Shown: positions 2,384 to 17,044 of the stretch, piece after piece
Layout of the letters: each line of letters begins with the position of its first letter
Numbering within the stretch: the stretch's first letter is position 1
IMG/VR virus record: IMGVR_UViG_3300050014_000226
Span: 1-21,874 of that record
DNA from: a virus
Length of the DNA: 21,874 nucleotides
Reading direction: 5' to 3' (one strand)
Translations under genes and position numbers: made by a program
The notes under the pieces: model-generated
What the model was told of the DNA's origin: nothing
Database searches by the model: none
The model's input: only the letters and a program-made list of their open reading frames with translations

Positions 2384-2986
2384 TCAGATAATGATCTTAA
2401 AGACTGGAAGTTTAACTTCGTTCTTGGCTTCATCCATACCAGGTTTCAACGGAGTTGAGTATAGACCATCTCTAAGGTTACGAAGGCGACTGTAATACTC
2501 TTTCTGCTCAAGTGTTGGTTTGAGTTTAACAAGTTCACGAACCTGTTTCAGATAATCAAGAGCACCAGTGTAACATCTGTCAATGTAGATAGGTACATCA
2601 ACACCTTCAATCTGATGATTGCGCATCTTCAGTTGCCCAACAACTTTGAGCTGAACTGATGCAATGCCAACGCCATCTTCAACCAGCTTATGAGCTGCCA
2701 TCTGTAAGTTACAGAAGTCTTTGCTGTCTTTGAATTCGTCAAGCCAAATTTCTTTGACTTTACCTTCAGAGATTCTAAGAGCTGCAAGCTGGTTCACACT
2801 AACCTCATACTGTTTGCCTTTGGAGTTCTGAAGGTACAACTGGTGTCCTTCTTCCTTTGCAGGATCAACTTCAATGGTGTATGTTTCAGGGCCCATGGGT
2901 GCATCGTTAATACGATTAAACCCAAGAGAAATAGAACATACGATTGACAACAGAGATTCGCGGGTAATTTCAACGACTGATTTCAT
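2384..2986 (-). CDS. Unknown phage protein, paralogue of the 1611-2174 product
   Basis: 200 aa, starting at ATG 2986. No family is recognised. It shares three blocks with its left neighbour: ETYTIEV near residue 34, QLAALRI then a central CYTGALDYLK, and a closing KLPVFKIII. The pair probably arose by tandem duplication and has diverged strongly. The N-terminal 30 residues are moderately hydrophobic (SLLSIVCSISLGF), but I would not call a signal peptide. The start has the TTAATAC element 9 nt upstream, and a hairpin-rich leader lies between it and the membrane-protein genes to the right. A terminator follows the stop. Function unknown. Confidence 0.85.
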   Translation of the reverse strand: MKSVVEITRESLLSIVCSISLGFNRINDAPMGPETYTIEVDPAKEEGHQLYLQNSKGKQYEVSVNQLAALRISEGKVKEIWLDEFKDSKDFCNLQMAAHKLVEDGVGIASVQLKVVGQLKMRNHQIEGVDVPIYIDRCYTGALDYLKQVRELVKLKPTLEQKEYYSRLRNLRDGLYSTPLKPGMDEAKNEVKLPVFKIII

Positions 2987-3002
2987 AACAAGAATGTATT
3001 AA
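2987..3002 (-). promoter_or_regulatory. TTAATAC-N9-ATG start-proximal element
   Basis: Minus-strand TTAATAC (3002-2996) lies 9 nt before ATG 2986, followed by ATTCTTGTT and then ATGA. This is the same arrangement as at 2174 and 3673. Confidence 0.55.
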
Positions 3003-3006
3003 ATTG

Positions 3007-3129
3007 TTGAGCATCCAATCAAGTGAGGCTCAAGTTCACTTACTTTCCGGCTATAGTCTAGGACTATATACGGCGCAGACCCCAGGGAGAACTAACTCCC
3101 CGAACGCCTTGGGCTTAACTGCTCCCAAG
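3007..3129 (-). other. Hairpin cluster in the intercistronic leader of the 2384-2986 gene
   Basis: Four potential hairpins occur within about 125 nt: TTGAGC/GCTCAA (3007-3012/3028-3033), which competes with AAGTGA/TCACTT (3021-3026/3036-3041); TATAGTC/GACTATA over TAG (3052-3068); GGCG/CGCC enclosing GGGAG/CTCCC (3072-3108); and CTTGGG/CCCAAG (3108-3113/3124-3129). No U-tract follows the last on either strand. The segment could be a structured leader, an RNA-processing region or a small RNA. Transcription would be leftward if it belongs to the flanking genes. Confidence 0.4.
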
Positions 3130-3134
3130 AATAT

Positions 3135-3299
3135 TTAGTATCTCCAACCAGTTGTTGGAGCATCTCCGAAGATTAATGATAAGAACCACCCACCAACGCA
3201 TATTGCAACGATGATGAGTAAAATCTGTGGGCATAATATAAGTAGTGCTATTACAATTAATGCAATGACTACAAACCCAGAACCATCATGATTACTCAT
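3135..3299 (-). CDS. 54-aa small membrane protein
   Basis: A leftward 54-codon frame from ATG 3299 to TAA 3135. A short polar N-terminus (MSNHDGSG) is followed by a long hydrophobic stretch, residues about 9-44, enough for one long or two close membrane helices separated near CPQ, then a short tail ending TTGWRY. The start overlaps the TGA of the preceding membrane-protein gene (ATGA), so coupled translation is likely. The two genes form a small membrane-protein operon. A 7-bp hairpin (3142-3148/3154-3160) lies in its final codons. The family is not recognised; a holin-like or envelope-modifying role is possible but unsupported. Confidence 0.75.
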   Translation of the reverse strand: MSNHDGSGFVVIALIVIALLILCPQILLIIVAICVGGWFLSLIFGDAPTTGWRY

Positions 3300-3673
3300 A
3301 GCAATGATATTTCATCAGAACTTAATTCAACACTAAATCCATAGAAACCTGATTTCTCTTTGGCTATGATTGCCTGGAGATACAGTTGAACTTTCCTTTC
3401 TTCACTAGGAACGTTCTGAACAAGCCAAGCATGCATTGAAGCAACGTCTTGGAATAAAACAGAATGCATTCTATCAATTGCATTGTAATGAGGGATGCTA
3501 ATAGCATGAGGATCATCACGATCCTGGAACTCATCTGGCTGAGACATTCTGTATTTGTGATAGAATGTAAACCAAGCATCAATACCTGCAACAATACAAG
3601 CAACGAATAAGATAGAACCAAAGAACACATAGCCAATGGCTGTGTTTAAATGCAGAGACAAGAACCAGTTCAT
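3296..3673 (-). CDS. Single-pass membrane protein, function unknown
   Basis: 125 aa. Residues about 11-36 (TAIGYVFFGSILFVACIVAG) form a membrane helix near the N-terminus, followed by about 85 soluble residues rich in charged and aromatic side chains (RMSQPDEFQDRDDPHAISI, then SEERKVQLYLQAIIAKEKSGF). The topology is likely N-terminal anchor with one soluble domain. The start at 3673 carries the TTAATAC element 9 nt upstream, and the gene is the first of the leftward operon facing the divergent control region. It ends in an ATGA overlap with the 54-aa membrane protein. No conserved family is recognised. Confidence 0.8.
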   Translation of the reverse strand: MNWFLSLHLNTAIGYVFFGSILFVACIVAGIDAWFTFYHKYRMSQPDEFQDRDDPHAISIPHYNAIDRMHSVLFQDVASMHAWLVQNVPSEERKVQLYLQAIIAKEKSGFYGFSVELSSDEISLL

Positions 3674-3689
3674 AACATAAGTGTATTAA
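3674..3689 (-). promoter_or_regulatory. TTAATAC-N9-ATG start-proximal element
   Basis: Minus-strand TTAATAC (3689-3683) lies 9 nt before ATG 3673, with ACTTATGTT between and ATGA at the start. It is the third copy on leftward genes and the closest to the divergent control region. Confidence 0.55.
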
Positions 3690-3810
3690 ACACCAACGCT
3701 CATACTATCTCCTTACTATCTATGTAAGGTACAATGGTAGAGTGAATGGTAAGTATGTACTATAGTCTGGTAGTATATCGGAAAGTATAATGAAGTCTTT
3801 GGTTTTACAA

Positions 3811-3834
3811 GGGGGTGTAGGGGTGTGGGGGTGG
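3811..3834 (+). other. G-run cluster with possible G-quadruplex
   Basis: Runs GGGGG (3811-3815), GGGG (3820-3823), GGGGG (3827-3831) and GG (3833-3834) occur in 24 nt, with further GGG, GGGG and GGGG at 3874, 3879 and 3895. This is striking in AT-rich DNA. Three long runs plus a short fourth could form a two-tier quadruplex. Confidence 0.45.
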
Positions 3835-3999
3835 CATGAACGAATTTATAAAAGTAATTTCCCATTGGAATTTGGGCAGGGGAGTAATTACTAAGGGGTG
3901 CACACTTTAATACCTACCCATAAAATTTTCCAAAAATTTTTTTTAGAACACTACACAATGCGTAGTTAATTGCAAACTCATTACATACCAAACATGAAA

Positions 4000-4082
4000 T
4001 TATACCCGAACTGGTATAGCTACTTTTTCAACTAGTTAATAACCAGGTGTAGTTACTCTTCAGTAGGCTCGATCGGGTATAA
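4000..4082. repeat. 10-bp inverted repeat spaced by 63 nt
   Basis: TTATACCCGA at 4000-4009 is the exact reverse complement of TCGGGTATAA at 4073-4082. The spacing suits a pair of protein-binding half-sites or DNA looping better than a simple hairpin. Confidence 0.55.
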
Positions 4083-4093
4083 CTTAGACACTA

Positions 4094-4126
4094 GCATGGA
4101 CACTTACATAGACACTATGTCCATGC
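4094..4126. repeat. 9-bp stem-loop with alternative inner stem
   Basis: GCATGGACA (4094-4102) pairs perfectly with TGTCCATGC (4118-4126). The 15-nt loop and inner arm can instead form ACATAG/CTATGT over ACA, so two mutually exclusive folds exist. No U-tract follows. Confidence 0.6.
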
Positions 4127-4332
4127 GCGATCTACTACGAAGTGTGTAGTAAGTTGCTCGGGACATTGATGTCCTTACCACTCATTAATAATAGGAATTA
4201 AATAGGTAGTCACAGTACCAATATCGTAACATTTTTAATGGATATTAACTACCCGCGAGTATGCACTTTAGTACTAATAGGCAGATAATAATTAGCTTAC
4301 TGATTGAGAAAAATATTTACTATAATGTCATT

Positions 4333-5136
4333 ATGAATGATGTATTAGTATTAAGATCTGCAATAGATCTCATGGATACTGGGACTCAGATATGCTGGAG
4401 TAACAAGCATATGCTGCCACCAGGTTACACATGGAATGAAGATGGTTATGTGATTACCGCGATACCATATCCCTACGTTAGGGCATGTGTCGGCTTACGA
4501 TTCTCCTTCCTTATTGGGAAGTTAGGAATGAATGAATTTGTCAGACAAAATTTAATTGTTGTCAGACTACTTAATGGAGATGTGCATAAAGCAATAGTTA
4601 CAGCGGTTATATGGTCAGCTTTTAAGAAGTCTGGTTTTATACTAGATAGAATTAAGTTTGATAAAGTTGCAACTGAAGTATATGCATTAAGTACATTACC
4701 AACGCTGGATCAGGCTTTTATAACCTGGAGACGAACATGGTTCTCGGAGTCTTGTGATTACAATACAGTAAGTAAAGTACTTAGAGTTGAGAATAGTTCG
4801 AAGATAGATGCTGACCGGGACCTTATGAAGGTTGATGAGAAGTATATTACCGAAGCGGTAGCGGAGTTCACAGGATTTAGCCGGCGACGAATAGATAGTT
4901 ACTGGAGTGAGAAGCAGTGGACAAAGAAACTTAGAACACTATTCACGATTGAAGAAGCGATAGATGAGTTGGAAAGTAAAGGAATTCTTAATCCTACCCG
5001 GGAACAGATTGCACTTACTGCTGGATTATCAACACGAACAGTTATATCCTCTGTAAAGGATATGGAAGTTTTACTAGCAAATAATAGAGTCGAAGCACTC
5101 GAAGAGAATAATGTTAATAAGGATAATGAGTTATGA
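4333..5136 (+). CDS. Unknown protein with C-terminal helix-turn-helix segments, probably DNA-binding
   Basis: 267 aa from ATG 4333; the frame is open back to ATG 4261 (291 aa), but the extra 24 residues look like translated AT-rich leader. The last 90 residues hold two HTH-like segments: AVAEFTGFSRRRIDSYW, and TREQIALTAGLSTRTVISSV near the C-terminus. The second closely resembles the N-terminal HTH of the leftward HNH nuclease (187-732). The N-terminal two thirds are unrecognised. It is the first gene of the rightward block, beside the divergent control region, and overlaps the nuclease gene that follows by ATGA. A regulator or replication-initiation role is plausible from position, but is inference. 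TATAAT at 4321-4326 lies so close to the start that a transcript from it would be nearly leaderless. Confidence 0.75.
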   Translation: MNDVLVLRSAIDLMDTGTQICWSNKHMLPPGYTWNEDGYVITAIPYPYVRACVGLRFSFLIGKLGMNEFVRQNLIVVRLLNGDVHKAIVTAVIWSAFKKSGFILDRIKFDKVATEVYALSTLPTLDQAFITWRRTWFSESCDYNTVSKVLRVENSSKIDADRDLMKVDEKYITEAVAEFTGFSRRRIDSYWSEKQWTKKLRTLFTIEEAIDELESKGILNPTREQIALTAGLSTRTVISSVKDMEVLLANNRVEALEENNVNKDNEL

Positions 5137-6005
5137 GAATACATGAAGAAGTTAATGGTCTGGAGTATGATAATATATCTACGGACAAAAAAGTTATATT
5201 TAGAGAGAAGGGTCACAAATATATTCATGTGGACCATCCCGAGTTAAAATTTACATCAGTTACCCAACTGTTAGGATACTACAAAGAAAAGTTTGACGGC
5301 TTAGCAGTTGCGGAGAAATGTGTAGCGGATCCAAAATCAGAATACTATGGACAAGATGCAGAAGCCGTTGCAGCAGAGTGGATCAGATACGGAGCCGAGT
5401 GTGCCGAAAATGGAACCATACTTCATGAGTACGGAGAAAAACTCTTTAATAGAGTTACAGACATTGTGGTTCCGGATAATCCTAAGGCAAAGCATGCTAA
5501 GGCTGCTGTTGACTTTCTATTCTCGCAAGGATACGAACTAGCAATGTCCGAGATGTTATTATACTCTGAGGAGTTAGGCATAGCCGGAATGGATGATATT
5601 ATACTTAAGAAAAGAATATATGGTACTACGGACTATGACTTCATGATATTTGACTGGAAGTTCCTTAGTAAACCAATAACAAAGAAATCATTTTACTCCA
5701 GGAAGAATGGATACAAGATGATGAAAGGTCCATTCAAACACCTAATGGATTGTAACTGGATTCATTACAGCATACAGTTATCCTTATATCAGACACTAAC
5801 TGGGGAACCGGGGAAGATAACTGAGAAGGTACTAATTGTAGTTGGAGATAATGGTTATGAATTAATTCCCGCATATCCGATGAGAGTTTTCTGGGATCAG
5901 AATAATGAACTACAATGTGTTCATGAGATCTGGAACGGTAGGTGGTGGGATTCAAGAATGCAAGAATTATATAAGCGTAAGCCAAAAGATATTATAGGTA
6001 TTTAA
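5133..6005 (+). CDS. PD-(D/E)XK nuclease, RecB/Cas4-like
   Basis: 290 aa. The RecB-type core appears in order: GTILHEYGEKL with H98, a glutamate in MSEMLLYSEE (140-147), GIAGMDDII with D154/D155, DWK with D174 and K176, and the trailing QxxxY motif as QLSLY (Q215, Y219). These are the catalytic metal-binding and lysine residues of Cas4/RecB/AddB-like exonucleases. In phages such enzymes serve recombination, replication-fork processing or degradation of host DNA. No cysteine cluster of a Cas4 iron-sulphur site is evident. The ATG overlaps the upstream stop (ATGA), pairing the nuclease with the HTH protein in one operon. Confidence 0.85.
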   Translation: MRIHEEVNGLEYDNISTDKKVIFREKGHKYIHVDHPELKFTSVTQLLGYYKEKFDGLAVAEKCVADPKSEYYGQDAEAVAAEWIRYGAECAENGTILHEYGEKLFNRVTDIVVPDNPKAKHAKAAVDFLFSQGYELAMSEMLLYSEELGIAGMDDIILKKRIYGTTDYDFMIFDWKFLSKPITKKSFYSRKNGYKMMKGPFKHLMDCNWIHYSIQLSLYQTLTGEPGKITEKVLIVVGDNGYELIPAYPMRVFWDQNNELQCVHEIWNGRWWDSRMQELYKRKPKDIIGI

Positions 6006-6067
6006 ATCGGCATAGAAGAAGCAGTCCGAAACAGAAACAGAATTAGAAACAGTAATACATAGAAGAA

Positions 6068-6379
6068 ATGTTGACACTTAAGATCATACACATCGACAAT
6101 GAAGGTGGTAAAACTACCTATCTTTTCGCAGGAGAAAGAATATCACATACTGAAGTAGAACAAACCGATCATTCAATGGAATTTAAATCCTTAGAAGAGA
6201 ATGATTATTTCTTGGTCGGAGAATTTACAAATGAGTTAAGTAAACAACCGTACGTAATGTCTACGGTGAATATATTTGACGGCAATGACTATCAGACAAT
6301 ACAAGTACTACCAAAGTCAGATTGCTTTATAATGGCAAATGGCAAAACGGTAGATACATTCGCAAGCTACTATAAATAA
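6068..6379 (+). CDS. Hypothetical protein, 103 aa
   Basis: An unrecognised soluble protein. The composition suggests mostly beta strands (LKIIHIDNEG, TTYLFAGERI, YVMSTVNIF, YQTIQVL), with no membrane segment or cysteine cluster. The 60-nt gap before it is purine-rich with short GAAACA repeats near 6028-6051 and no Shine-Dalgarno sequence. It lies between the nuclease and the basic virion-type proteins, so it may be either the last early gene or the first structural gene. Confidence 0.7.
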   Translation: MLTLKIIHIDNEGGKTTYLFAGERISHTEVEQTDHSMEFKSLEENDYFLVGEFTNELSKQPYVMSTVNIFDGNDYQTIQVLPKSDCFIMANGKTVDTFASYYK

Positions 6380-6405
6380 TTATTAACAATTGACTGCTTC
6401 TACTA

Positions 6406-6789
6406 ATGCCATTACTTATACATAGAAAATTAGAACCAGGAGATGAAGCTATAGCAAAGGCTAAAAGCGGCATCCATATTAAGCCGGAGAACAAAGATAA
6501 GTTTACCGCGACTAAAAAAGCTACAGGAAAATCAACTGAAGCGCTTACACACAGTAAGAATAAGAAGACTAAGATGCGTGCTGTATTTGGTCAGAATGCA
6601 AAAAAGTGGGCTAAGAAAAGAATGTGTGGCGGGTTACTTCATAAGAAACCAGTCATAGCTAGAAACGTATCTACGAATATCGGGAGAGTTCCTTCCGGAG
6701 CCAATCAACTTGGTAGACCAACAAATAAAAATAGAGTAGGAACAACAAAGGCTAATGTTGGGAAACCACAACCGCCTACTAAAAGATAA
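6406..6789 (+). CDS. Small basic protein, probably virion-associated
   Basis: 127 aa and highly basic. Residues 22-69 contain GIHIKPENKDKF, TATKKATGKSTEALTHSKN and a closing RAVFGQNAKKW. This is a short conserved motif I recall from many tailed-phage proteins, often virion-associated; the recollection is not a database hit. A CGGLL segment at residues 74-78 starts a low-complexity K/P/N/T-rich tail (residues 80-127) that looks disordered. Basic disordered proteins in late regions often bind packaged DNA or enter the head as cargo, but that is inference. It is the first of several neighbouring proteins carrying a GG(L/V/M)(L/M) tetrapeptide. Confidence 0.75.
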   Translation: MPLLIHRKLEPGDEAIAKAKSGIHIKPENKDKFTATKKATGKSTEALTHSKNKKTKMRAVFGQNAKKWAKKRMCGGLLHKKPVIARNVSTNIGRVPSGANQLGRPTNKNRVGTTKANVGKPQPPTKR

Positions 6790-6794
6790 TAACC

Positions 6795-7616
6795 ATGATG
6801 GGATTATATCTACCCGGAGGACCACTTAATAAAACTAAGGTAAAACAAACGCCAACTAAGATTGTTGGTGATGTGTCTAAGACCCCCGGGACTCAGATAC
6901 CTCCTGCTAAACCATTGACTACTAAACCACAAAGAATGGCTTTAAATAAAACGCCAAGGAAGGGTTCAGTTAGTGGTCAGGATAGGAATCCCTATGAGAA
7001 GAAACAAGATGGTGGCGTTATGAGACCATCGGATCCCAGGAATCGTCCAGTTACAGCAGGTGATAGAATTCATAATGCTATCTCCGATGTAGGCACAGGC
7101 GTAGCAACCTGGGGAACTTCATTTCGCCCGCCAACCGACGCCGAGAAGAAACTTGGTAGAGGTACATGGGCCGATAGAGCTAAGTTACTCGCCGGTGCAG
7201 CAACACAAGGGCTTACAAATGAAATGATTGCAGGAGGCATTGGAAAAATTGCCGGCAAATTTATACCTAAGTCAGTAACCAAGATAGTACCTAAGTCTGA
7301 AACAATAGACGTAGGATCTAAAATGTATAATCGCCAGAACGTAACAAACGAAATAACGACTAATGCTCCGATGGAGAAAGACCTTGTAGAATACTTGAAT
7401 GGTCTGCCACATGATGAGTTTGCAGCGTACGCAAAAAAGCGTGCTGGGTATGTTAATCTCGGTAGATATTTTACCGTTACACCTTCTGGTTTAAAGAAAG
7501 GTGGATTACTTTCTACCAAGAAAGCAAAAACAATATTACACGATAAAGAGGTACGCGGACATCCGCTGACAGATAAACAACGCAGATACTTTGGGTATCT
7601 ATCTAATAAAAAATGA
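6795..7616 (+). CDS. Basic protein with conserved C-terminal PLTDKQRRYFG motif, probably virion-associated
   Basis: 273 aa. The first 90 residues are K/P/T-rich and look disordered, with a GGVM at 73-76. A middle section (100-165) is rich in Gly, Ala and Ile (AGAATQGLTNEMIAGGIGKI), perhaps an amphipathic or membrane-active helix. The C-terminus has KKGGLLSTKKAKTILHD followed by GHPLTDKQRRYFGYL. I know this last motif, usually written GKPLTxKQRRFFG, as a short element at the ends of diverse phage virion proteins; its function is unknown. The start is uncertain between adjacent codons 6795 and 6798. It sits 5 nt after the upstream basic protein. Confidence 0.75.
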   Translation: MMGLYLPGGPLNKTKVKQTPTKIVGDVSKTPGTQIPPAKPLTTKPQRMALNKTPRKGSVSGQDRNPYEKKQDGGVMRPSDPRNRPVTAGDRIHNAISDVGTGVATWGTSFRPPTDAEKKLGRGTWADRAKLLAGAATQGLTNEMIAGGIGKIAGKFIPKSVTKIVPKSETIDVGSKMYNRQNVTNEITTNAPMEKDLVEYLNGLPHDEFAAYAKKRAGYVNLGRYFTVTPSGLKKGGLLSTKKAKTILHDKEVRGHPLTDKQRRYFGYLSNKK

Positions 7617-7635
7617 CAATTTAATAACTAATGAG

Positions 7636-7860
7636 ATGACAATGATGGAAGAAAGAATTTTCTTTACAGCGGGCGATGTAGTCACGCTGCGTCAGAACAT
7701 ACCAAATGTTCCGACAATGATCGTGAGATCTATCGATAAGGTAGCTGCCCACGGCGAAAAACCTCTTCTACTTGGAGTAGCATGCTTCTGGTTTACCCAG
7801 TTAGGCGAGTTCCAGGAAAAGAGATTCAACACAAAAGACCTGATACACGTAGAGAAATAA
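7636..7860 (+). CDS. YodC-like small protein (DUF2158-type)
   Basis: 74 aa from ATG 7636. An earlier in-frame ATG at 7591 would overlap the previous gene and adds residues with no resemblance to the family, so I prefer the later start (7642 and 7645 are also possible). The pattern FTAGDVVTLRQNIP, TMIVRSI, then CFWFTQLGEFQEKRF and a final DLIHV matches the YodC/DUF2158 fold: a GDVV strand, a conserved hydrophobic strand, a CxWF strand and a closing strand. This is a small SH3-like beta barrel of unknown role, common in phages and bacteria. Confidence 0.7.
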   Translation: MTMMEERIFFTAGDVVTLRQNIPNVPTMIVRSIDKVAAHGEKPLLLGVACFWFTQLGEFQEKRFNTKDLIHVEK

Positions 7861-7863
7861 GCG

Positions 7864-8079
7864 ATGGACTCGGTAGTAGACGATAACAATAAAATAATGG
7901 AGCATGGCATTAAGCAATTGCTCGGTAAAGAAGAGTATGATCCTGCAGAAAAACTAAAAGTATGCACACACATCTCGGATGGTTTTGTCTATGATGATAC
8001 TCCAGTGTTTACAACTCTTCAATGTGCAAGGTGCGGTTTACAGTATGATGTACTGAAAGCAACCGGAATGATAATGTAA
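7864..8079 (+). CDS. Small putative zinc-binding protein
   Basis: 71 aa. Residues C34 and H36 (VCTHI) and C54 and C57 (CARCG) form a plausible CxH...CxxC zinc site with a 17-residue spacer (FVYDDTPVFTT). The first 30 residues are acidic and probably helical. It starts 4 nt after the YodC-like gene, so the two are likely co-translated. No named family is recognised and no function is assigned. Confidence 0.65.
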   Translation: MDSVVDDNNKIMEHGIKQLLGKEEYDPAEKLKVCTHISDGFVYDDTPVFTTLQCARCGLQYDVLKATGMIM

Positions 8080-8083
8080 TTCT

Positions 8084-8713
8084 ATGAGCCTATCATTTAC
8101 CATAAGGAAAGAACGTATCGTAACTGATCCTAAGTTTTTCTTATTCAAGGCTTTCACGGATATCTGGGAGTGGGACAAATCAGAAAATAAAGATAAAGCA
8201 CATAGGATGTTAAGATTCGTCTTCCTATTATGTGACATCACTGAGGAGTGCCCACTTAAAGATGTACCGGTCTTGAAGAGAGAAGCAGAAGCATTATTTC
8301 ATGCATACAAGGACAAGAACTACAAATTTACTAAGAAGGAAAGGGAATTAGTCTCAGCGGCTATCGATACGTATATAAAGTACAACGAGACTGCCGAAGA
8401 AAGATTGCTTGGTGAGTTTGATTGGAAGGCAGATGAACTCCGAAATAAACTCGAGGAGACAATGCCTGAGACAGAAACAAATGTGATTAATGGAGTTACT
8501 TCATTTGTAAGTAATTCAGATATAATAACCAAAGCCTTAAAGGAGTTGAATTCCGTTAAGAAGTCGAAGATCTCTGTGATCTCCGCAATAAAAAGAGAAG
8601 CGTTGAGCCAGAGGGTTAGAGGTGCAGCATCACTATCACCAAACTCAAGAGGATTAATAACCATGCCATCGCTGGCAGATAGAGATATGAATGATGAAAC
8701 TAGTAGCGTATAA
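8084..8713 (+). CDS. Unknown late protein, first of a tandem paralogous pair
   Basis: 209 aa, mainly helical and charged. It is homologous to the next gene by eye: RFVFLLCDITEECPLKD aligns with IFIFLLCDLSNDNPLVD, REAEAL with RREEAL, DTYIKYNETAEE with DIYIKNVNTDEQ, and RGAASLSPNSRG with RGGLSPLAQG, in the same order and similar spacing. No catalytic motif, membrane helix or signal peptide is visible. The FLLCD segment (47-51) is the best-kept block. It overlaps its paralogue by 23 nt. Location among late genes suggests a structural or assembly role; this is inference. Confidence 0.75.
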   Translation: MSLSFTIRKERIVTDPKFFLFKAFTDIWEWDKSENKDKAHRMLRFVFLLCDITEECPLKDVPVLKREAEALFHAYKDKNYKFTKKERELVSAAIDTYIKYNETAEERLLGEFDWKADELRNKLEETMPETETNVINGVTSFVSNSDIITKALKELNSVKKSKISVISAIKREALSQRVRGAASLSPNSRGLITMPSLADRDMNDETSSV

Positions 8714-9356
8714 GGGTGCAGTAAGAATAGATCCTGCATCAATTGTTGAACCAGAACTAAAACGATTGCTGCATGAACTCGAGGATGTGTTACAAGATCC
8801 GTCACTTCATGATAGAGTTTGCATTTTTATTTTTCTTTTGTGTGACTTGTCCAATGATAATCCTCTTGTGGATCGTCCTTGGAATACTCGGCGTGAGGAA
8901 GCACTTTCCGTTGCTTTCGGATCAGATCTCGACAAGTTTACAACACTTAAAGACTCTAATGAGAAGATAAGAGATCTAATTAATAAGAGTATTGATATCT
9001 ACATTAAGAATGTTAATACTGACGAACAAAAAGATATTGCTACCTATAGTAAGAAGATGGACCAGTTCCGTGTCATGCTTCATGATATGAAACCGGTTAT
9101 AGCAAAAAATGTCAACGAGTTCAACGAGAAGATAACTTATTCAACAAATATGGAAATTATCAACTCAGTACTTAGTGATATAGTTTCTCTCATACAAGCT
9201 AAGGCTTCTATGATTGCACTTCATACAACAGGTCAAATACCCAAGCATTTACGTGGCGGACTATCTCCACTTGCCCAGGGTAATGTATTAATAGAATTAG
9301 AACAAGAAATTTTATTGGAACCCGATACCACCGAAGAAGAGGTTGAGGAAGAGTAA
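8691..9356 (+). CDS. Unknown late protein, second of a tandem paralogous pair
   Basis: 221 aa, helical, with a strongly acidic tail (TTEEEVEEE). It shares with the preceding product the FLLCD block (48-52), an arginine-rich RREEAL stretch, a DIYIK helix and a glycine-containing RGGLSPLAQG near residue 188. The predicted start at 8691 lies inside the upstream gene; 8694 is equally possible. Divergence is deep enough that the duplication must be old or under different selection. Tandem paralogues that form hetero-oligomers are common in phage necks and tails, but no evidence points to this specifically. Confidence 0.75.
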   Translation: MMKLVAYKGAVRIDPASIVEPELKRLLHELEDVLQDPSLHDRVCIFIFLLCDLSNDNPLVDRPWNTRREEALSVAFGSDLDKFTTLKDSNEKIRDLINKSIDIYIKNVNTDEQKDIATYSKKMDQFRVMLHDMKPVIAKNVNEFNEKITYSTNMEIINSVLSDIVSLIQAKASMIALHTTGQIPKHLRGGLSPLAQGNVLIELEQEILLEPDTTEEEVEEE

Positions 9357-9369
9357 CATTTTTATAATT

Positions 9370-10062
9370 ATGCCAATACTGAAAACAGCAAAACCAATTA
9401 ATACTAAAGATCTTATACCAATGAGAACTGATACTTATACACAGAATAAGGTTGCAGAGACAAAAGTTAATCCCGCAAATAATCGATCAGTCAATCCGTC
9501 AATTCCAATGGCTAGTACTGGTGGATTACTTAGACACGTTAGTGCGGTGATACCCAAGACAATACCATCAGCACAATCTGGAACAGTACTAGATACAACC
9601 GTATCACAAGATACTCTTAATGATAGAGCTCTTAAAAGTATGATGAAAGAAAAAATGGCTGCTAGAGCGTTCATAAATAATGAACAAAAATCTGGTACTA
9701 TTGGCGGACTTATGTCAACAAAATTATCGACGGTTTCTCCAGATAGAAAATTACCACAAATGGATAATCCGGATGTAGGAAAAGTAAGAACATTTGCCGA
9801 ATCAATCTCAAGACCTGAAATGAAGGCATTACTTAATACTACTGCCAATCCGTTCGGTAAGAGTGGTTGGTTAAAGAATATAGTATTTAATCCAGATGTA
9901 CACATCACCATGGATAAGGTTGCTAAAGCTGGCTCTGCTGCAAAAGGACTGTTTAATCTCAATAAGCAAGGATATAAATTCACAATAGGTGGTACATTAA
10001 GTGCAGCAGAATTAAAAGATAGAAGAAATGAAGAACTTAATCCCAACTACTCACATGGATGA
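9370..10062 (+). CDS. Unknown late protein with two GG(L/M) motifs
   Basis: 230 aa from ATG 9370. The frame also opens at 9343 inside the previous gene, but MPILKTAKP gives a clean start 13 nt after the preceding stop and matches the MPLLIHRK start of the gene at 6406. Sequence is low in aromatics and rich in S, T, N, P and K, suggesting extended or disordered structure. ASTGGLLRHV (49-57) and TIGGLMSTK (110-118) carry the tetrapeptide shared with neighbouring proteins. The C-terminus FTIGGTLSAAELKDRRNEEL is charged and may be helical. No domain recognised; probably virion-associated from context. Confidence 0.7.
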   Translation: MPILKTAKPINTKDLIPMRTDTYTQNKVAETKVNPANNRSVNPSIPMASTGGLLRHVSAVIPKTIPSAQSGTVLDTTVSQDTLNDRALKSMMKEKMAARAFINNEQKSGTIGGLMSTKLSTVSPDRKLPQMDNPDVGKVRTFAESISRPEMKALLNTTANPFGKSGWLKNIVFNPDVHITMDKVAKAGSAAKGLFNLNKQGYKFTIGGTLSAAELKDRRNEELNPNYSHG

Positions 10063-10951
10063 AAAATCAACACTAGAACATCTCTGGAGTCTGGCAATGC
10101 CAAGGCAAAATAGATACGAGAGAACTTTAATGTATAAACCGAGTGTAAAGAAACAAGCTAAGGGTGGACCTGCAACAGAACCTCCTACTACAACTCCAAA
10201 CATTAAACCGGTTGATATGTCTGATTGGGAAAAGGGTGGACAGCAGGACATTGAAGAGTATAAAAAGACTATACCTACAAATGAGTCAATTAATAATAGT
10301 GCAAGACTTTATGCATACAAAGCTAAGTTAGATTCAGCACTTGCAGCAAAGAATCCAAATGCTTGGAAAAAGATAAGCGGTTCATACGATCCAAATGCTT
10401 CAGTGCAAGATAGACTTACAAAAGCTCAAGGATACATTCAAGATAAAACTTATCCTTATGCTTTAAACGAAGCAGATCAGAGAGCAACGTTAGGTAATGA
10501 CTACGAAGACTTTAATAAACTACGTACTGGATATGCAGCAAACGTAGCTAAATTTGGAGAAGGAAAGTATACAGTACAAGGCAGTGGCGAACAAGGTCAA
10601 CCAGTCGATCAGACAGCATATGGATTAAGAAACTCCTGGGCAATTGGTCCAGCAAGACATGAGTTTGGATCTAGTATCAATGGAGCACCAAGAGCGCACA
10701 TAAATACAACTGCATCATATGATACCACAAAGAAGGCGTACGATTATCAATATAGTCAACCTAAGTACTATCCGCTTGCAAACACTAAGAAGCAAGGTGG
10801 ATTATTAAGAGGTTATAGTTCAAAGAAAGATCCTATGACTAAAGAGCAGACTGCGAAGCAGTATGAAGCCGATAGACGTCGCGATTCCTCACTTCGTAAA
10901 CCGGATATGGTTCCAGGGTCGGCAAGTAAATCACGTTCACACAGATCATAA
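10055..10951 (+). CDS. Unknown late protein, probably virion-associated
   Basis: 298 aa from ATG 10055, which overlaps the upstream gene by 8 nt; starts at 10028 and 10097 are also in frame. The N-terminal 60 residues are basic with KGGPATEPPTTTPNIKP. The middle is a helical section (NSARLYAYKAKLDSALAAK) and a Tyr/Gly-rich part (YGLRNSWAIGPARHEFGSS, YDYQYSQPKYYPL). The last 50 residues begin KKQGGLLRGY (GG at 248-249) and are very basic. I recognise no enzyme motif. Its stop and the next start form a TAATG overlap, so it is co-translated with the zincin-like protein. Confidence 0.72.
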   Translation: MDEKSTLEHLWSLAMPRQNRYERTLMYKPSVKKQAKGGPATEPPTTTPNIKPVDMSDWEKGGQQDIEEYKKTIPTNESINNSARLYAYKAKLDSALAAKNPNAWKKISGSYDPNASVQDRLTKAQGYIQDKTYPYALNEADQRATLGNDYEDFNKLRTGYAANVAKFGEGKYTVQGSGEQGQPVDQTAYGLRNSWAIGPARHEFGSSINGAPRAHINTTASYDTTKKAYDYQYSQPKYYPLANTKKQGGLLRGYSSKKDPMTKEQTAKQYEADRRRDSSLRKPDMVPGSASKSRSHRS

Positions 10952-12072
10952 TGGATAGACGAGATTCAATAAGTTTACTCCGAGACTACGGAGTACCAAT
11001 GCAGGATAACACTGCTTATAGTTTATCCTATGGTAAAGATAGTTCAAAGGATCCCAGTAAATCTGGACCTAAGAAACCAAAAGTAACAGTACCTGGTAAA
11101 CCAGCTAAAACCAAAGCTTGGTTAAAAGATAAGACTGGTTTGCTTAAGATCAAACAAGCTTCGGCTAAAATGGATGTTGGTGGAGTATTATATAATAGAC
11201 CATGTCCTAATTGTGGTAAGAGAGAATGCCAGGGTTGTGGTCCGGAGATGGAACCAACTAAAGGAAAAGTACCAGCAAATATAAAGGATAGAGAAAAGAA
11301 GATTCCTGTAAAGAATCCAAATGCTATATCTGGGGTACCAAAGAAACTCTTATATACTACACTAGACGGTATTAAAGTATATCAGGTTGATGATGATTAT
11401 GTAAAGGTAAATCTATATGAAGATTTTACAGAGGGTGGTAACTGGGAAGCATACCCTGAGTTTGTTCCAATCGGAGAAGTCTGGGTAGCAAACGATAAGA
11501 CTCCGCAGAATCAGGAAGATATTATAACTCACGAATTAACAGAAGTAAGACTCATGAAAAACAAAGGCATGACTTACGACAAAGCACACGTTATAGCAAA
11601 TAGAACAGAAATGAATAAAAGAATTCAAGAACGTCCAGGACTACTTGTACCCAAAGAAAAAAAGGGAGGCAAAGTAGGTAACCCAGAGAACCGCGACAAA
11701 CCAGGAGGATCTAACGTAGGTAAGTATTCAAAATCAGAAGGACCATTTGCTGGACCATCTGGAGGTGCTCCTGCAGGAAGTTATCCTATTGGAAGCAAGT
11801 CTCGCGGCAAATCAGCACTTAAGTTAGCTCATAATGCTCCGAATCCAAGTGGTATAAAAGCTGCAGTCTATCGTAAGTATCCTGATCTTAAGAAAGATAC
11901 AAAGAAAGCAATGGAAGGTGCAAAGTTAGGATTAGGCGGAATGGGACAACTTCAAGATAAAGCTCCATCACCAAGTAAACCTAAACATACTTTTCCACCG
12001 GATAAGGTAAAACAAAATTTTGCTTTGTACAAAAGAAAAACTAAAATACCAAAGTCTGCATACGGACACTAA
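10951..12072 (+). CDS. Zinc-cluster and zincin-like metallopeptidase-domain protein, putative virion or maturation factor
   Basis: 373 aa in a multi-part layout. After a K/P-rich N-terminus comes a CPNCGKRECQGCG cluster (C85, C88, C93, C96), likely one zinc. Residues about 130-220 resemble a small zincin domain: DGIKVYQVDDDYVKV, FVPIGEVWVANDKTP, then THELTEVRLM with H194, E195 and E198, and GMTYDKAHVIAN with H213. HExxE plus a downstream AH is a pattern I associate with phage minor metallopeptidase-like domains; activity is unproven, and the third ligand could be E198 or H213. Residues 266-311 (PFAGPSGGAPAGSYPI, KSALKLAH, YRKYP) match a short motif seen in phage structural proteins. A maturation protease or internal virion protein are the main options. 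Start overlaps the upstream stop (TAATG). Confidence 0.7.
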   Translation: MDRRDSISLLRDYGVPMQDNTAYSLSYGKDSSKDPSKSGPKKPKVTVPGKPAKTKAWLKDKTGLLKIKQASAKMDVGGVLYNRPCPNCGKRECQGCGPEMEPTKGKVPANIKDREKKIPVKNPNAISGVPKKLLYTTLDGIKVYQVDDDYVKVNLYEDFTEGGNWEAYPEFVPIGEVWVANDKTPQNQEDIITHELTEVRLMKNKGMTYDKAHVIANRTEMNKRIQERPGLLVPKEKKGGKVGNPENRDKPGGSNVGKYSKSEGPFAGPSGGAPAGSYPIGSKSRGKSALKLAHNAPNPSGIKAAVYRKYPDLKKDTKKAMEGAKLGLGGMGQLQDKAPSPSKPKHTFPPDKVKQNFALYKRKTKIPKSAYGH

Positions 12073-12090
12073 TGGTAACCAATATGAATT

Positions 12091-15000
12091 ATGGAAAATG
12101 AAAATGCAATTGTTGCGCCAGGAATAATTACTTCTGACCAAGGAATAGTTAAACCAGAGATGTGGATTCCAAACATGAAACTTATTACTGAGTCAGAACA
12201 AGTCCGACAGGAGATGGAATGGCTACGTAAGAAAAGTGGATATGATGGAAAGAAACCAACTGAGTTAGGTATAGATGCTTATAGATTCTCAGCAAAGTTA
12301 CATCCTAAGTTTTTCGAAGGACGTACACCCCCGGCAGTGCCTTTAGATTCTCTTGAGAATATAGAATGGTACGAAGACCAACTAAAGCGTTGTGTCTACG
12401 GATTCGAATACAGGGGTCAAAGAATAACAGGAGACCATTACTGGTTTCTAAACATGTTCCCCTTCCTTGTTGCTAAACTTAACAAGGCAGGTAAAGTTAC
12501 AAATGAGTTTGACGTAAACTTCGCATACTACGCCGGAATGCATGATTATGTATTCAAGTCTATAGAACAAGCCCAGTACGAAGGTAAGGGGTTTCTGTGG
12601 ATGTCTGGTCGTGGTTCGGGCAAGTCATATGTTGTATTATCAATAGTAGCTAAAATATATCATTTAAAACCTAAATCACATGGTATAGTATCAGCCTCAC
12701 ATTCCGGGCATGCTAATGAAACCTACTCAAAACTATTACAAGCATTAGATTCTATAGCAGAAGTACATCCAACTTTAGCACTACATAGATTAGTCGATAC
12801 AAAATCATTAGTAGAATCTGGGCAAGAGATACTTAGAGATGGTATAAAATACAAAGAAGGACCAAGATCAAAAATACAAAAGGTTATTTATGGTGATAAT
12901 CCTGGCGCTACCAGAGGAAGCAGACCAGATATACAATTGATGGAAGAGTGTATGGCTCCAGGCACAAAAGTGCTTATGTATGATATGTCCTATAAAAATA
13001 TCGAGGATATACAACTGGGAGATAAAGTAATGGGTATAGATTCTCTACCAAAAGAAGTTGGTAAAACCACTACTGGAAAAGATAGAATGTTTAAAATATC
13101 TCAGAGTAAAGGGGTATCTTATATAGTAAATAGTTCGCATAAATTATATGTAGAACAACGTTATGGAGTAAGTTCTGATGGTATAAAATTACTAACACCA
13201 GAAGAGTATAGTAATATAGTTTCTAAAAAGAAACAAAGTACAACATACGGGATAAAGTCAGCTTGCATTTCTGCGTTTAATAAGCCTACATTTATAAATC
13301 CTTATATACTAGGATTATGGCTTGGGGATGGAAGGAAGGGGACAGATGTAATTCTAATAGATAAATCAATGAATGAATACTTTATAGAATTAGCTATAGA
13401 GTTAAATGCAGACATTAAGTTTACGAATCATAAATTATCTACAAAAGTAAACTATGTAAAATTATATCAAGTTGGAACAAAGAAAGGATATTTTATTGAT
13501 ACATTAAATAACTTTAAATTAAAAAACAACAAACATATTCCAGAGCAGTGTTTATTATGGAATAAAGCTTCAAGATTGCAATTACTAGCCGGGCTTATCG
13601 ACTCTGATGGGTGGTTAGAGTATAATAAAAATAAGACGACATATAGATATGCTATATATCAAAAAGATTTGTCATTTGTTGAAATGGTAAGACGTATAGC
13701 AATGTCGTTAGGTATATACTCAACTATCAGAACTAAATCAAAGATAACAGATGCTAAAGTATTTGATGGATATGTGGTCTCCTTAATTGGAGATACTATA
13801 AAAGAAATACCAGTAGTTTTAGAAAGAAAAAAGATACCGGCAGACTGGAAACGATCTCATGATGTTTTAAGGACGGCAAGTCTAACTATAGAACCACTTG
13901 GAATAGGTACTTATTACGGATTTACCCTAATAGGTGATAAATTAGAAGACCACTTATTCATACTTGAAGATGGAACTATTACTAAAAACTGTGGCGACTG
14001 GTCAACTGGTAAAGGGGATTTGAAGTCCTGTATCGGTGCATCAATCGGATCATGGTTTGTTGGTTCTATAAACAAGTGCCGAGTATTTATGATTGGAACT
14101 GGAGGGTCTGTTGCATCTGACCAAATTAAAGATGTATTCAAGAATCCGGAAGCTTATAACTTATTGCAGTTTAAGGACTTTGCTCCTAAATCAGCATTTT
14201 TCTTACCAGCCTATTACTTCCTTGGAGGTCAAGGGTGGGAGGAGACGAGTGTAAATAACAATGATGGTGCTAAGGCTTATCTAGAAGCAGAGCGAGTTAG
14301 AACGAAAGATGATATGGAAATCCATAGTAAAATCGTTCAAGAATTCCCGTTCACTATTGATGAGGTTTTTAGAAAGAATGGTACCAATAACTTTAATCAA
14401 AGAAAGATCGCGGAACAATGGTCGGCGCTACACTATGAGTTAGAAGGGCACAAACCAGAAAAAGGATTTTTGACATGGATCAAATCTCCAAGTGGTTCCA
14501 TAAAAGGCGTGAAGTGGGAGAAGAATCCTGAAGGGAATATAGAAATTCTAGAACATCCTTACAAAGGTCAAACTGGAAAAGAAGTATTTACAGATCTATA
14601 TGTCGGTGGGGTTGACAGTATAGACCAGGGTATTATGGATTCCACAAGTATAAAAAATAGATCATCGTTGGCATGCCTAATAAAGAAAAGAATTATTGAC
14701 GGTAAATTTTTTAGTCAAACATCTAACATTTATGTAGCTAAGTATATCGGTCGTAGCCTTGACGTACGTTGGGATTATGAGGAAACTCTTAAACTAGCAA
14801 TGTACTACAATGCTAAAATGAATATTGAGTATACCAAGATTGGAGTAGTAAACTATTTCCGCGAGGCTAAACAATATCATAGACTTCTTAAAAGACCATT
14901 AGTAGCAATGCCATCTAAGGGAGAAAAGGTTCAGGGTCTTCAAAAAGATCAGAGTAACCTGATAGGTACCCCAGCATCAACAAATGTCATTGACCACCAA

Positions 15001-15423
15001 GACGGGAAGATCAAGGAATATATCGAAGACTACTATAATAACATTTTCTTTATAGATGTCCTAGAGCAACTACGTGATTACCAACGCGAAGATAGGCGTA
15101 AGTATGACTTAGTAATTGCGATGGGATTATGTGAACTTGCAGACGAAGACATGTTTGGTATTGCAGCACGAGGAGAGGATTCACCGACAAGTGAGTTTGT
15201 TCCATTCGGTTGGTACAATGACGAACATGGTAGGAAAAAATTTGGTAAGATACCTGGAAAGTCATCTCCAGAAAAAGAAGCGCTTAATAAGCCAGGACAG
15301 ATGTCTATGGCGACGTGGATTGATATGTCAGGTAAACCTAGGTTCGATGATAACTTCGAGATAGGTGACGCAGATGATTTACCGATCAATAAACCAAGTA
15401 GTAGTCAAGAAGAACAAATATAA
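12091..15423 (+). CDS. terL: Terminase large subunit (packaging ATPase and nuclease), intein-containing precursor
   Basis: 1110-aa precursor. The ATPase domain has Walker A GRGSGKS (173-179) and Walker B IQLMEE, with the catalytic glutamates at 285-286. A 347-aa intein (287-633) interrupts the chain directly after them; joining C634 gives LMEECGDW and a spliced protein of about 763 aa, normal for crAss-like TerL. The nuclease domain shows motif I GVDSID (D842), motif II NIEYTK (E913) and motif III KYDLVIAMGL (D1006), an RNase H-like fold that cuts concatemeric DNA. TerL docks on the portal, encoded 1.7 kb downstream, and pumps DNA into the head. Without splicing, the ATPase catalytic site would be split, so packaging should depend on intein removal. 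The C-terminal 70 residues are polar and probably flexible. Confidence 0.95.
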   Translation: MENENAIVAPGIITSDQGIVKPEMWIPNMKLITESEQVRQEMEWLRKKSGYDGKKPTELGIDAYRFSAKLHPKFFEGRTPPAVPLDSLENIEWYEDQLKRCVYGFEYRGQRITGDHYWFLNMFPFLVAKLNKAGKVTNEFDVNFAYYAGMHDYVFKSIEQAQYEGKGFLWMSGRGSGKSYVVLSIVAKIYHLKPKSHGIVSASHSGHANETYSKLLQALDSIAEVHPTLALHRLVDTKSLVESGQEILRDGIKYKEGPRSKIQKVIYGDNPGATRGSRPDIQLMEECMAPGTKVLMYDMSYKNIEDIQLGDKVMGIDSLPKEVGKTTTGKDRMFKISQSKGVSYIVNSSHKLYVEQRYGVSSDGIKLLTPEEYSNIVSKKKQSTTYGIKSACISAFNKPTFINPYILGLWLGDGRKGTDVILIDKSMNEYFIELAIELNADIKFTNHKLSTKVNYVKLYQVGTKKGYFIDTLNNFKLKNNKHIPEQCLLWNKASRLQLLAGLIDSDGWLEYNKNKTTYRYAIYQKDLSFVEMVRRIAMSLGIYSTIRTKSKITDAKVFDGYVVSLIGDTIKEIPVVLERKKIPADWKRSHDVLRTASLTIEPLGIGTYYGFTLIGDKLEDHLFILEDGTITKNCGDWSTGKGDLKSCIGASIGSWFVGSINKCRVFMIGTGGSVASDQIKDVFKNPEAYNLLQFKDFAPKSAFFLPAYYFLGGQGWEETSVNNNDGAKAYLEAERVRTKDDMEIHSKIVQEFPFTIDEVFRKNGTNNFNQRKIAEQWSALHYELEGHKPEKGFLTWIKSPSGSIKGVKWEKNPEGNIEILEHPYKGQTGKEVFTDLYVGGVDSIDQGIMDSTSIKNRSSLACLIKKRIIDGKFFSQTSNIYVAKYIGRSLDVRWDYEETLKLAMYYNAKMNIEYTKIGVVNYFREAKQYHRLLKRPLVAMPSKGEKVQGLQKDQSNLIGTPASTNVIDHQDGKIKEYIEDYYNNIFFIDVLEQLRDYQREDRRKYDLVIAMGLCELADEDMFGIAARGEDSPTSEFVPFGWYNDEHGRKKFGKIPGKSSPEKEALNKPGQMSMATWIDMSGKPRFDDNFEIGDADDLPINKPSSSQEEQI
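12949..13989 (+). mobile_element. Intein with LAGLIDADG (DOD) homing endonuclease in TerL
   Basis: Residues 287-633 of the precursor. The N-terminal splicing block begins CMAPGTKVLMYD with C287 as nucleophile, followed by DIQLGDKVMGID. Block B is seen as IVNSSHKLYV (H350), where the usual Thr is replaced. The two DOD endonuclease motifs are LGLWLGDG (407-414) and LLAGLIDSDG (498-507), with KIPEQ-type spacing between. Block F is YYGFTLIGDKLEDHLFIL (H621). The element ends DGTITKN with N633, and C634 is the first C-extein residue. The penultimate residue is Lys, not the usual His. The AT-rich coding resembles the rest of TerL. It should self-splice and spread by cutting intein-less terL alleles. 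Confidence 0.93.
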
Positions 15424-15458: not shown

Positions 15459-15535
15459 GCCTGCAACGCATAAATGGTGGTGCACTAGCCTTGTAAGCTT
15501 GAATAGAATCCGTTCGATCCGGATTGTGGGCTCCA
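15459..15535 (+). tRNA. tRNA-Thr (anticodon UGU), slightly atypical
   Basis: A 77-nt cloverleaf with encoded CCA. Acceptor GCCTGCA/TGTGGGC pairs over 7 bp (two G-U). D-arm GCAT/GTGC encloses an 8-nt loop containing GG. Anticodon stem CTAGC/GCTTG has one T-T mismatch around loop CTTGTAA, giving anticodon TGT. T-arm ATCCG-TTCGATC-CGGAT is perfect. Discriminator is T, followed by CCA. G1-C72 and C2-G71 agree with known threonine identity elements. Unusual points: position 8 is A rather than T, and the 15-48 Levitt pair is not standard, so it may be degenerate or specialised. It would read ACA (and with wobble other ACN) codons during late gene expression. Confidence 0.8.
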
Positions 15536-15550
15536 AAATAATATGATAAT

Positions 15551-16072
15551 ATGGATAAGACTGAATTAGAAAACTTTATCCTTAATGGATTAAGTCAAAG
15601 ACAGATAGCAAAAATTAAAGGGTGTACTCAATCTACTATTGGTAGATGGTTGCGACGTTATAATATTACTAAATCTGATACAATTAAAAGAAAGTGTATA
15701 CAATGTGGACAACCAATAAATACTGGTCCAGCAAAGTTCTGTAGTAATACCTGTTGTGCTAGATACGGGTTTCTATCTAGAATGAACTCATGGTTAAATG
15801 GAACTCATTTTCCTGGTATTGTAGCAATAAGACATTATTTAGAAGAATTACGTGGGCACAAGTGTGAAGTATGCAATACATCAGAATGGATGGGCAGACC
15901 TATACCAGTTGAGGTAGAACATAAAGATGGTCATTCTGAAAACGATTCTCCAGATAATGTAATACTTATATGTCCTAACTGCCATGCACAGACAGACACG
16001 TATAAAAATAAGAATAAAGGGAATGGTAGACACTCACGTAGAGAACGCTATTCTAAAGGTTTATCATATTAA
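15551..16072 (+). CDS. HNH homing-type endonuclease with HTH and zinc cysteines
   Basis: 173 aa in three parts. Residues 13-38 form a resolvase-like HTH (LSQRQIAKIKGCTQSTIGRW). Residues 49-68 hold a zinc cluster (CIQC, C64, C68). The HNH nuclease core is at 103-145: GHKCEVC (C105, C108), VEVEHKDG with E123, H124 and D126, DNVILICPNCH with N136, C141, C144 and H145. The tail is basic. This layout fits free-standing phage homing endonucleases. It lies between the terL-tRNA segment and the small gene before the portal, where a mobile gene may have been inserted. No Shine-Dalgarno sequence precedes ATG 15551. It differs from the endonuclease VII-type protein at 187-732, so the window holds two independent HNH families. 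Confidence 0.88.
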   Translation: MDKTELENFILNGLSQRQIAKIKGCTQSTIGRWLRRYNITKSDTIKRKCIQCGQPINTGPAKFCSNTCCARYGFLSRMNSWLNGTHFPGIVAIRHYLEELRGHKCEVCNTSEWMGRPIPVEVEHKDGHSENDSPDNVILICPNCHAQTDTYKNKNKGNGRHSRRERYSKGLSY

Positions 16073-16429: not shown

Positions 16430-17044
16430 ATGAGAGTAAATGATATTAAGAAAGTAAAACCTGCGAAGGAAAATATAGTTGTCAAAACTATCGAGCTAGA
16501 TAAAGACAATGAGTTATTCTTTGCTAAATCCAAAACACAAGATACCAAAAATTCTGAACTCTCTTTTGGAGAGATTATTTCATTAGGTCCCAATGCAGGG
16601 AATCCGAGTCAATGCCCGGACGTAGAAGTTGGAGATATGGTTGTCGTTAATAGATACGCCGGCTCTCACATAGCAACAAACGAACTTAATGAGATTTACA
16701 AAGTAATGGTAGGATACAGTGTCATGGCTAAACTAGATGATATAAATAATATTGACGTTGAAACAACACAACCGTCATCGAACAGATTACTCATTGCAGT
16801 TAAACTAGTTGACTCCACAGATGGAGAACTCTACATACCTGCGAATGAATCATCTGACCCTCGTCTTGAGGATATAGATTATGGTGTAATAGTGAAGTTG
16901 GGACCGTCTTGTAAATTAGGATATAAAGTAGGCGATATAGTTGCATACAATCCATACTCAGGCGAGAACGTAAGAGCCGCTGAGTCTATGGATAAACCAG
17001 CACTACGCGTACTTATTGAGGAAGATGTACTTCTAACAATATAA
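16430..17044 (+). CDS. Tandem GroES-like co-chaperonin
   Basis: 204 aa with two Cpn10-like domains. Domain 1 (about 10-103) has PAKENIVVKTIELDKD, a mobile-loop-like region near 28-44, then FGEIISLGP and VEVGDMVVVNRYAG. Domain 2 (about 115-204) repeats the plan with SSNRLLIAVKLVDS, YGVIVKLGP and YKVGDIVAYNPYSG. The paired GxIxxLGP and VGDxVxxNxYxG blocks leave little doubt about the fold. Usual GroES has one domain of about 95 aa. Phage co-chaperonins such as T4 gp31 replace host GroES to fold capsid protein inside GroEL. Here one polypeptide carries two domains, so the seven-site ring would need a different stoichiometry. It is followed by a strong terminator. Confidence 0.85.
   Translation: MRVNDIKKVKPAKENIVVKTIELDKDNELFFAKSKTQDTKNSELSFGEIISLGPNAGNPSQCPDVEVGDMVVVNRYAGSHIATNELNEIYKVMVGYSVMAKLDDINNIDVETTQPSSNRLLIAVKLVDSTDGELYIPANESSDPRLEDIDYGVIVKLGPSCKLGYKVGDIVAYNPYSGENVRAAESMDKPALRVLIEEDVLLTI

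Follow-up and report, generated by a model that had tools for sequence, protein, structure and literature searches.

A homing intein of class 1 follows the Walker B glutamates of a phage terminase and has lysine as its penultimate residue

Inteins have been described in the large terminase subunit (TerL) of phages within the Walker A motif, the Walker B motif (TerL1-e, in phage Gaia) and the C-motif, and splicing has been reported (Kelley et al. 2016, PMC5050341). The same work describes phage class 1 inteins with Gly, Lys or Ser at the penultimate position; the RDF intein, whose penultimate residue is Gly, splices fast, and its ‘repaired’ Gly to His mutant is slow. TerL inteins are also known from the Delta crAss-like phages (Yutin et al. 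2021, PMC7886860).

The DNA analysed here, called the window, is the whole stretch of 21,874 bases of a virus record. On its forward strand, to which all TerL features below belong, the open reading frame at 12091..15423 encodes a TerL precursor of 1110 amino acids with an intein in frame: the phrog_6681 profile matches it at 6e-57 outside residues 287-633, and residues 287-633 match the Pfam families Hom_end_hint (1.8e-15), LAGLIDADG_3 (1.3e-8) and Hom_end (2.1e-8). The N-extein (12091..12948, 286 amino acids) holds the ATPase domain as far as Walker B, and the C-extein (13990..15420, 477 amino acids) the remaining ATPase and the nuclease domain, including a GTGG motif at 14095..14106 that is the coupling motif by position and that has a different intein beside it in other crAss-like TerLs. 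They are respectively 82% and 84% identical in amino acids to the intein-free TerL of a relative, L001. The window reads in the standard code. Among the TerL relatives, L116, L118-L123, L126-L128, L131, L132, L134, L135, L140, L145, L148, L152 and L170 have an in-frame TGA in conserved TerL and others a TAG, so that stop-codon reassignment is likely in them.

Between the exteins lies an insert of 1041 nucleotides, or 347 amino acids, at 12949..13989, bounded by the codons of Cys1 (12949-12951) and Asn347 (13987-13989) and followed by that of Cys+1 (13990-13992). The TerL of L001, 753 amino acids long, lacks the insert and reads QLMEE/VGDW across the junction (a slash marks a splice junction or insertion point); since it is uninterrupted, it fixes both junctions. 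At the DNA level, GAAGAG/TGT...AAC/TGTGGC in the window faces GAAGAG/GTCGGT in L001. Two other intein-free relatives, L002 and L003, read QLLEE/IGDW, and in all three the sequence is continuous across the junction. The earlier note had placed the intein at exactly these coordinates, with a 347-residue element and a spliced product that translation also predicts at 763 residues. It had held that uninterrupted homologues would argue against the intein; such homologues exist, but what they reveal is that the insert is mobile and optional, not that there is no intein. In the close empty relatives the +1 residue is Val or Ile, where the window TerL has Cys, which implies that the site had to change to Cys for splicing. 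Among 76 TerL relatives this residue is Ala in 45, Ser in 15, Ile in 6, Gly in 5, Phe in 3, and Val and Cys in one each; a natural Cys is found in one intein-free TerL, L128.

We accept the motif LMEE (12937..12948), directly after whose second Glu the intein sits, as Walker B, on the basis of sequence, strict conservation and a fold model of moderate confidence. Position -1 is Glu in all 76 relatives, -2 is Glu or Asp in all 76, and +2 is Gly in all 76, which bears out the description of the site as one of the least mutable in the protein. The only match of the family profile in the PDB is the P74-26 TerL, a weak one (E 0.03), in which fEEaG is aligned to VILDEA, so that the last two acids of LMEE face those of ‘LDEA’. 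In a model of the L001 TerL (pLDDT 78), a strand at 272-275 is followed by E276-E277, and the P-loop lies between a strand at 158-163 and a helix at 169-183; in the window the corresponding Walker A motif, SGRGSGKS, is at 12604..12627. The best structural neighbours of this model by Foldseek are T4 gp17 and the terminases of T7, Sf6 (gp2), HK97 and P74-26.

The insert has a Hint splicing domain and a LAGLIDADG homing endonuclease. Compared with 52 aligned relatives, block A (12949..12987, CMAPGTKVLMYDM) begins with Cys1, present in 52 of 52, and block B (13111..13152) reads V-N61-S-S-H64, with Asn61 at position B7 and, at B10, His64, also found in all 52. The two endonuclease motifs, ILGLWLGDG (13306..13332) and LAGLIDSDG (13585..13611), both keep their catalytic acids: Asp127 is shared by 51 of 52 relatives, Asp218 by 50 and Asp220 by 52. 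Block F (13906..13965) contains His335 (13951-13953) and an insertion of a few residues common to the inteins of the Walker B site. Block G (13966..13992) reads ITKN/C, with Lys346, Asn347 (52 of 52) and Cys+1. An AlphaFold (AF2) model of the intein has a pLDDT of 94.3, and its best fold match is PI-SceI (E 3.3e-28, TMq 0.79), with I-DmoI also matched; PI-SceI is again the best match when the sequence is compared with solved structures (2.9e-16). Cys1, Asn347, Cys+1, the block B His and an in-frame insert absent from homologues are all features of class 1, and the one feature that departs from it is the penultimate residue, Lys346 instead of His. A class 3 identity, as in TerL1-e, was considered and rejected: Cys1 is present, B12 is Leu66 and there is no WCT triplet. 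Sequence and model together identify it as a PI-SceI-like homing intein of class 1 with a LAGLIDADG endonuclease.

The penultimate His of class 1 inteins is common, but neither obligatory nor defining. Among the 52 aligned sequences the residue is His in 31, Leu in 11, Met in 8, and Lys and Phe in one each. The earlier note had pointed out the ending TKN followed by C, with Lys for His, and this Lys is indeed present and unusual. It had also pointed to the Asn of block B as a departure from the usual Thr; this Asn is present too but is no oddity, being the commonest B7 residue in relatives (Asn in 33, Ser in 10, Thr in 9).

A wider collection helps to interpret the Lys. Searches of IMG/VR recovered 112 distinct inteins, 34 of which immediately follow the [DE]E in the Walker B motif of a TerL (including L232, truncated upstream and placed by its C-extein). 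Their penultimate residues are Leu (18), Met (14), Phe (1) and His (1); with the window, the site counts 35 distinct sequences, one of them with Lys. The other 78 inteins, at other sites, have His in 75 cases and Arg in 3. Inteins with a penultimate Arg (TRN/TGK) are found at the P-loops RSGHG/ or ESGHG/ of L074, L204 and L218, and form a further set without His. None of these 112 distinct relatives, and none of the phage homologues examined, shares Lys346; homologues in cultured phages are 29-36% identical to the window intein. The closest relative found, the intein of L184, is 40% identical, no relative above about 40% was found, and the window intein is known from one metagenomic copy. A direct pattern search with this intein alone returned no relative, whereas profile searches did, and a scan of genome contigs for cellular relatives gave five weak matches at 21-24% identity.

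When the last three residues are left out of the intein tree, all 24 Walker B-site inteins included form one clade (support 98/94), and 23 of them lack the penultimate His, having Leu, Met, Phe or, in the window, Lys; the exception is L184, which the window adjoins (support 95/65). Near this clade are inteins of crAss-like TerLs inserted two residues further on (EEAG/) and inteins of portal genes. A first tree favoured two independent losses of His, one in the window and one in the DE clade. An AU test, however, rejects neither one loss only (p 0.53) nor a placement of the window apart from the other clade members, so the number of losses is left at one or two. A universal rule by which inteins of the Walker B site have no penultimate His is ruled out by L184 (ITHN) and Gaia (VTHN). 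We found no description of this class 1 clade in the open-access literature; a lineage tied to one site in which almost every member has lost the penultimate His is apparently undescribed. The window intein itself is a further member of a known, published sort of element, and its Lys is interesting mainly through the clade.

Class 1 splicing chemistry and LAGLIDADG homing are both established, and together they explain everything observed. The reading that we prefer, with a probability of about 85%, is that of a homing class 1 intein whose endonuclease copies it into the Walker B codons and which splices itself out, the role of the penultimate His being non-essential. The endonuclease would cut intein-free TerL alleles at these highly conserved codons, and repair would copy the intein into the cut allele. 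After translation, the intein would be excised through Cys1, Cys+1 and Asn347, and LMEE ligated to CGDW to give the TerL of 763 amino acids. The role of the penultimate His would be dispensable in this lineage, with Lys standing here in its place and His335 of block F as the likeliest helper. We infer splicing because its residues are intact and the C-extein is under strong purifying selection; for the C-extein compared with L001, dN/dS is about 0.04, a rough ratio given that dS is near saturation. Because of this selection, we take it that the phage still uses its TerL. The unspliced precursor would be dead as an ATPase, judging by the position of the insert, and packaging very probably needs splicing because the intein interrupts the ATPase core, as the earlier note had proposed. 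This dependence would follow from the places in which a selfish element can persist, rather than being evidence of regulation. The reading draws further support from the low GC of the insert (given below) and from Gaia, whose TerL intein sits at the same position and splices. Against it speak the lack of a counterpart to Lys346 among the relatives examined, the single metagenomic copy, and the Val or Ile at +1 of the empty relatives.

A regulatory reading is the best of the alternatives, and one that we consider unlikely. The Lys would weaken Asn cyclisation, making splicing slow or conditional, and the activation of TerL would be delayed or would respond to pH, redox state or the folding of the ATPase site, thereby timing packaging. 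The rarity of a penultimate Lys and the insertion within the ATPase core speak for it, and sensor-type inteins have been proposed in the literature (PMC5050341; PMC6195587). However, the whole Walker B-site clade does without His, L184 excepted, the block F His is present and the block B Asn is normal. Published losses of the His do not predict slowness either: phage inteins without it splice well, and putting a His into the RDF intein slowed it. Slower or conditional splicing as an effect of the Lys and the Asn together, which the earlier note had suggested, is thus conceivable but unsupported.

It is very improbable that the non-canonical block G residue marks a decaying intein, splicing poorly in a phage on its way to extinction or able to live with unspliced TerL: all 347 codons are open, the other catalytic and endonuclease residues are kept, the fold is predicted with confidence, and the selection on the C-extein points the same way. 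An assembly chimera of an unrelated intein with a TerL is scarcely credible, since a single metagenomic contig and a sharp GC shift at the junctions (0.308 in the intein versus 0.383 and 0.389 in the exteins, and below all 209 sampled contig windows of 1041 nucleotides) are set against junctions that fall exactly between codons, with Cys1, Asn and Cys+1 in place, and against dozens of relatives, among them L184, L191 and L220, in which an intein fills the same position on an independent contig.

The preferred reading, of a homing intein, is consistent with the distribution of the element. Carriers and empty sequences are mixed on the TerL tree, with 6 changes of which at least 4 are forced; only 2 of the 76 SGKW-type loci that cover the site carry the intein, and even in the main carrier group the majority of TerLs lack it. 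The intein is therefore mobile and optional. The window offers a clean case of a homing element lodged in those codons of an essential motor that can change least, and its empty close relatives serve as natural controls. A doubtful reading, though one worth stating, takes the Walker B-site inteins of phrog_6681 TerLs as a single site-specific lineage that lost the penultimate His and whose catalysis is partly lent by the catalytic glutamates of the host protein. If the site is the cause, the acidic extein residues at -2 and -1 might replace the chemistry of the His, or the formation of the ATPase site might gate Asn cyclisation. The clade is a natural experiment on Asn cyclisation without the usual His in class 1, and on whether these extein acids contribute.

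Other elements are found in the same genes and their neighbours. In L108, the TerL (2448-7211) has a group I intron (RF00028) at 3655-3929, shortly (a few codons) before the place of the Walker B inteins, and a GIY-YIG-like reading frame accompanies it on the other strand; a second insert, with an HNH-like reading frame, lies at the nuclease motif GVD/SIDQG, a place where L107 has an insert as well. The active-site codons of TerL are a point of convergence of several element types. Relatives of the Walker B TerL inteins also occur in the portal genes of L035 and L063 (both phrog_6547) and of L092, at FINP[HY]E/; together with the sister inteins at EEAG/, they suggest a local spread of inteins within the crAss-like packaging module.

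Around the TerL gene, the window has a tRNA-like gene at 15459-15532, which scores 37.5 bits with Rfam and has the anticodon loop CUUGUAA but escaped both ARAGORN and the scan of the whole window, and, just after TerL at 15551-16072, a free-standing HNH endonuclease, where L003 has different HNH-like reading frames. Between TerL and the portal gene, 16430-17044 encodes a Cpn10/GroES protein of 204 amino acids with two Cpn10 matches, as in a tandem domain, and similar reading frames are found in L001, L002 and L004. An endonuclease VII-like protein is encoded on the reverse strand at 187-732. Several basic reading frames in 6406-12072 share a short GG[LV][LM] motif (for example KKGGLLSTKK and KQGGLLRGYS), and may form one family, of scaffold proteins or virion cargo.

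Set beside known systems, the intein shares features with each. The closest cultured-phage homologues read out, the Walker A inteins found in four phage helicases and in the Vibrio phage pYD38-A TerL, are of the same class 1 family, with 29-38% identity and a block B VNxSH, but are inserted in the P-loop and end in THN/T or THN/S. The inteins of the Delta crAss-like phages (PMC7886860) and of L027, L042 and L083 also occupy phrog_6681 TerLs, at or near Walker B (WEEAG/C) or at GTGG; unlike the window intein they have retained the His and lie either two residues on, at EEAG/, or at the coupling motif, in some cases in TAG-recoded genes. The GTGG motif is also the intein site in the TerL of Dulem virus 42, and the crAss-like TerL of L042 (2604-6944) apparently has two inteins, at WEEAG/ and GTGG, like the Delta case. 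The intein of L184 (IMGVR_UViG_3300014208_000005) has the same position and the same +1 Cys (EE/C...N/CG), but keeps the penultimate His. PI-SceI, the Sce VMA intein, is likewise class 1, with Cys1, Cys+1 and LAGLIDADG motifs, but resides in a V-ATPase, is 454 amino acids long and has a penultimate His. Gaia TerL1-e, reported to splice readily (PMC5050341), also sits in a TerL directly after the Walker B Glu and has a homing endonuclease-like region; we checked in the gp2 sequence (FIILNE/A...VTHN/S) that the position is the same. It differs in being a class 3 intein without Cys1, starting ALALDT, that keeps its penultimate His, is followed by Ser at +1 and belongs to an unrelated TerL family.
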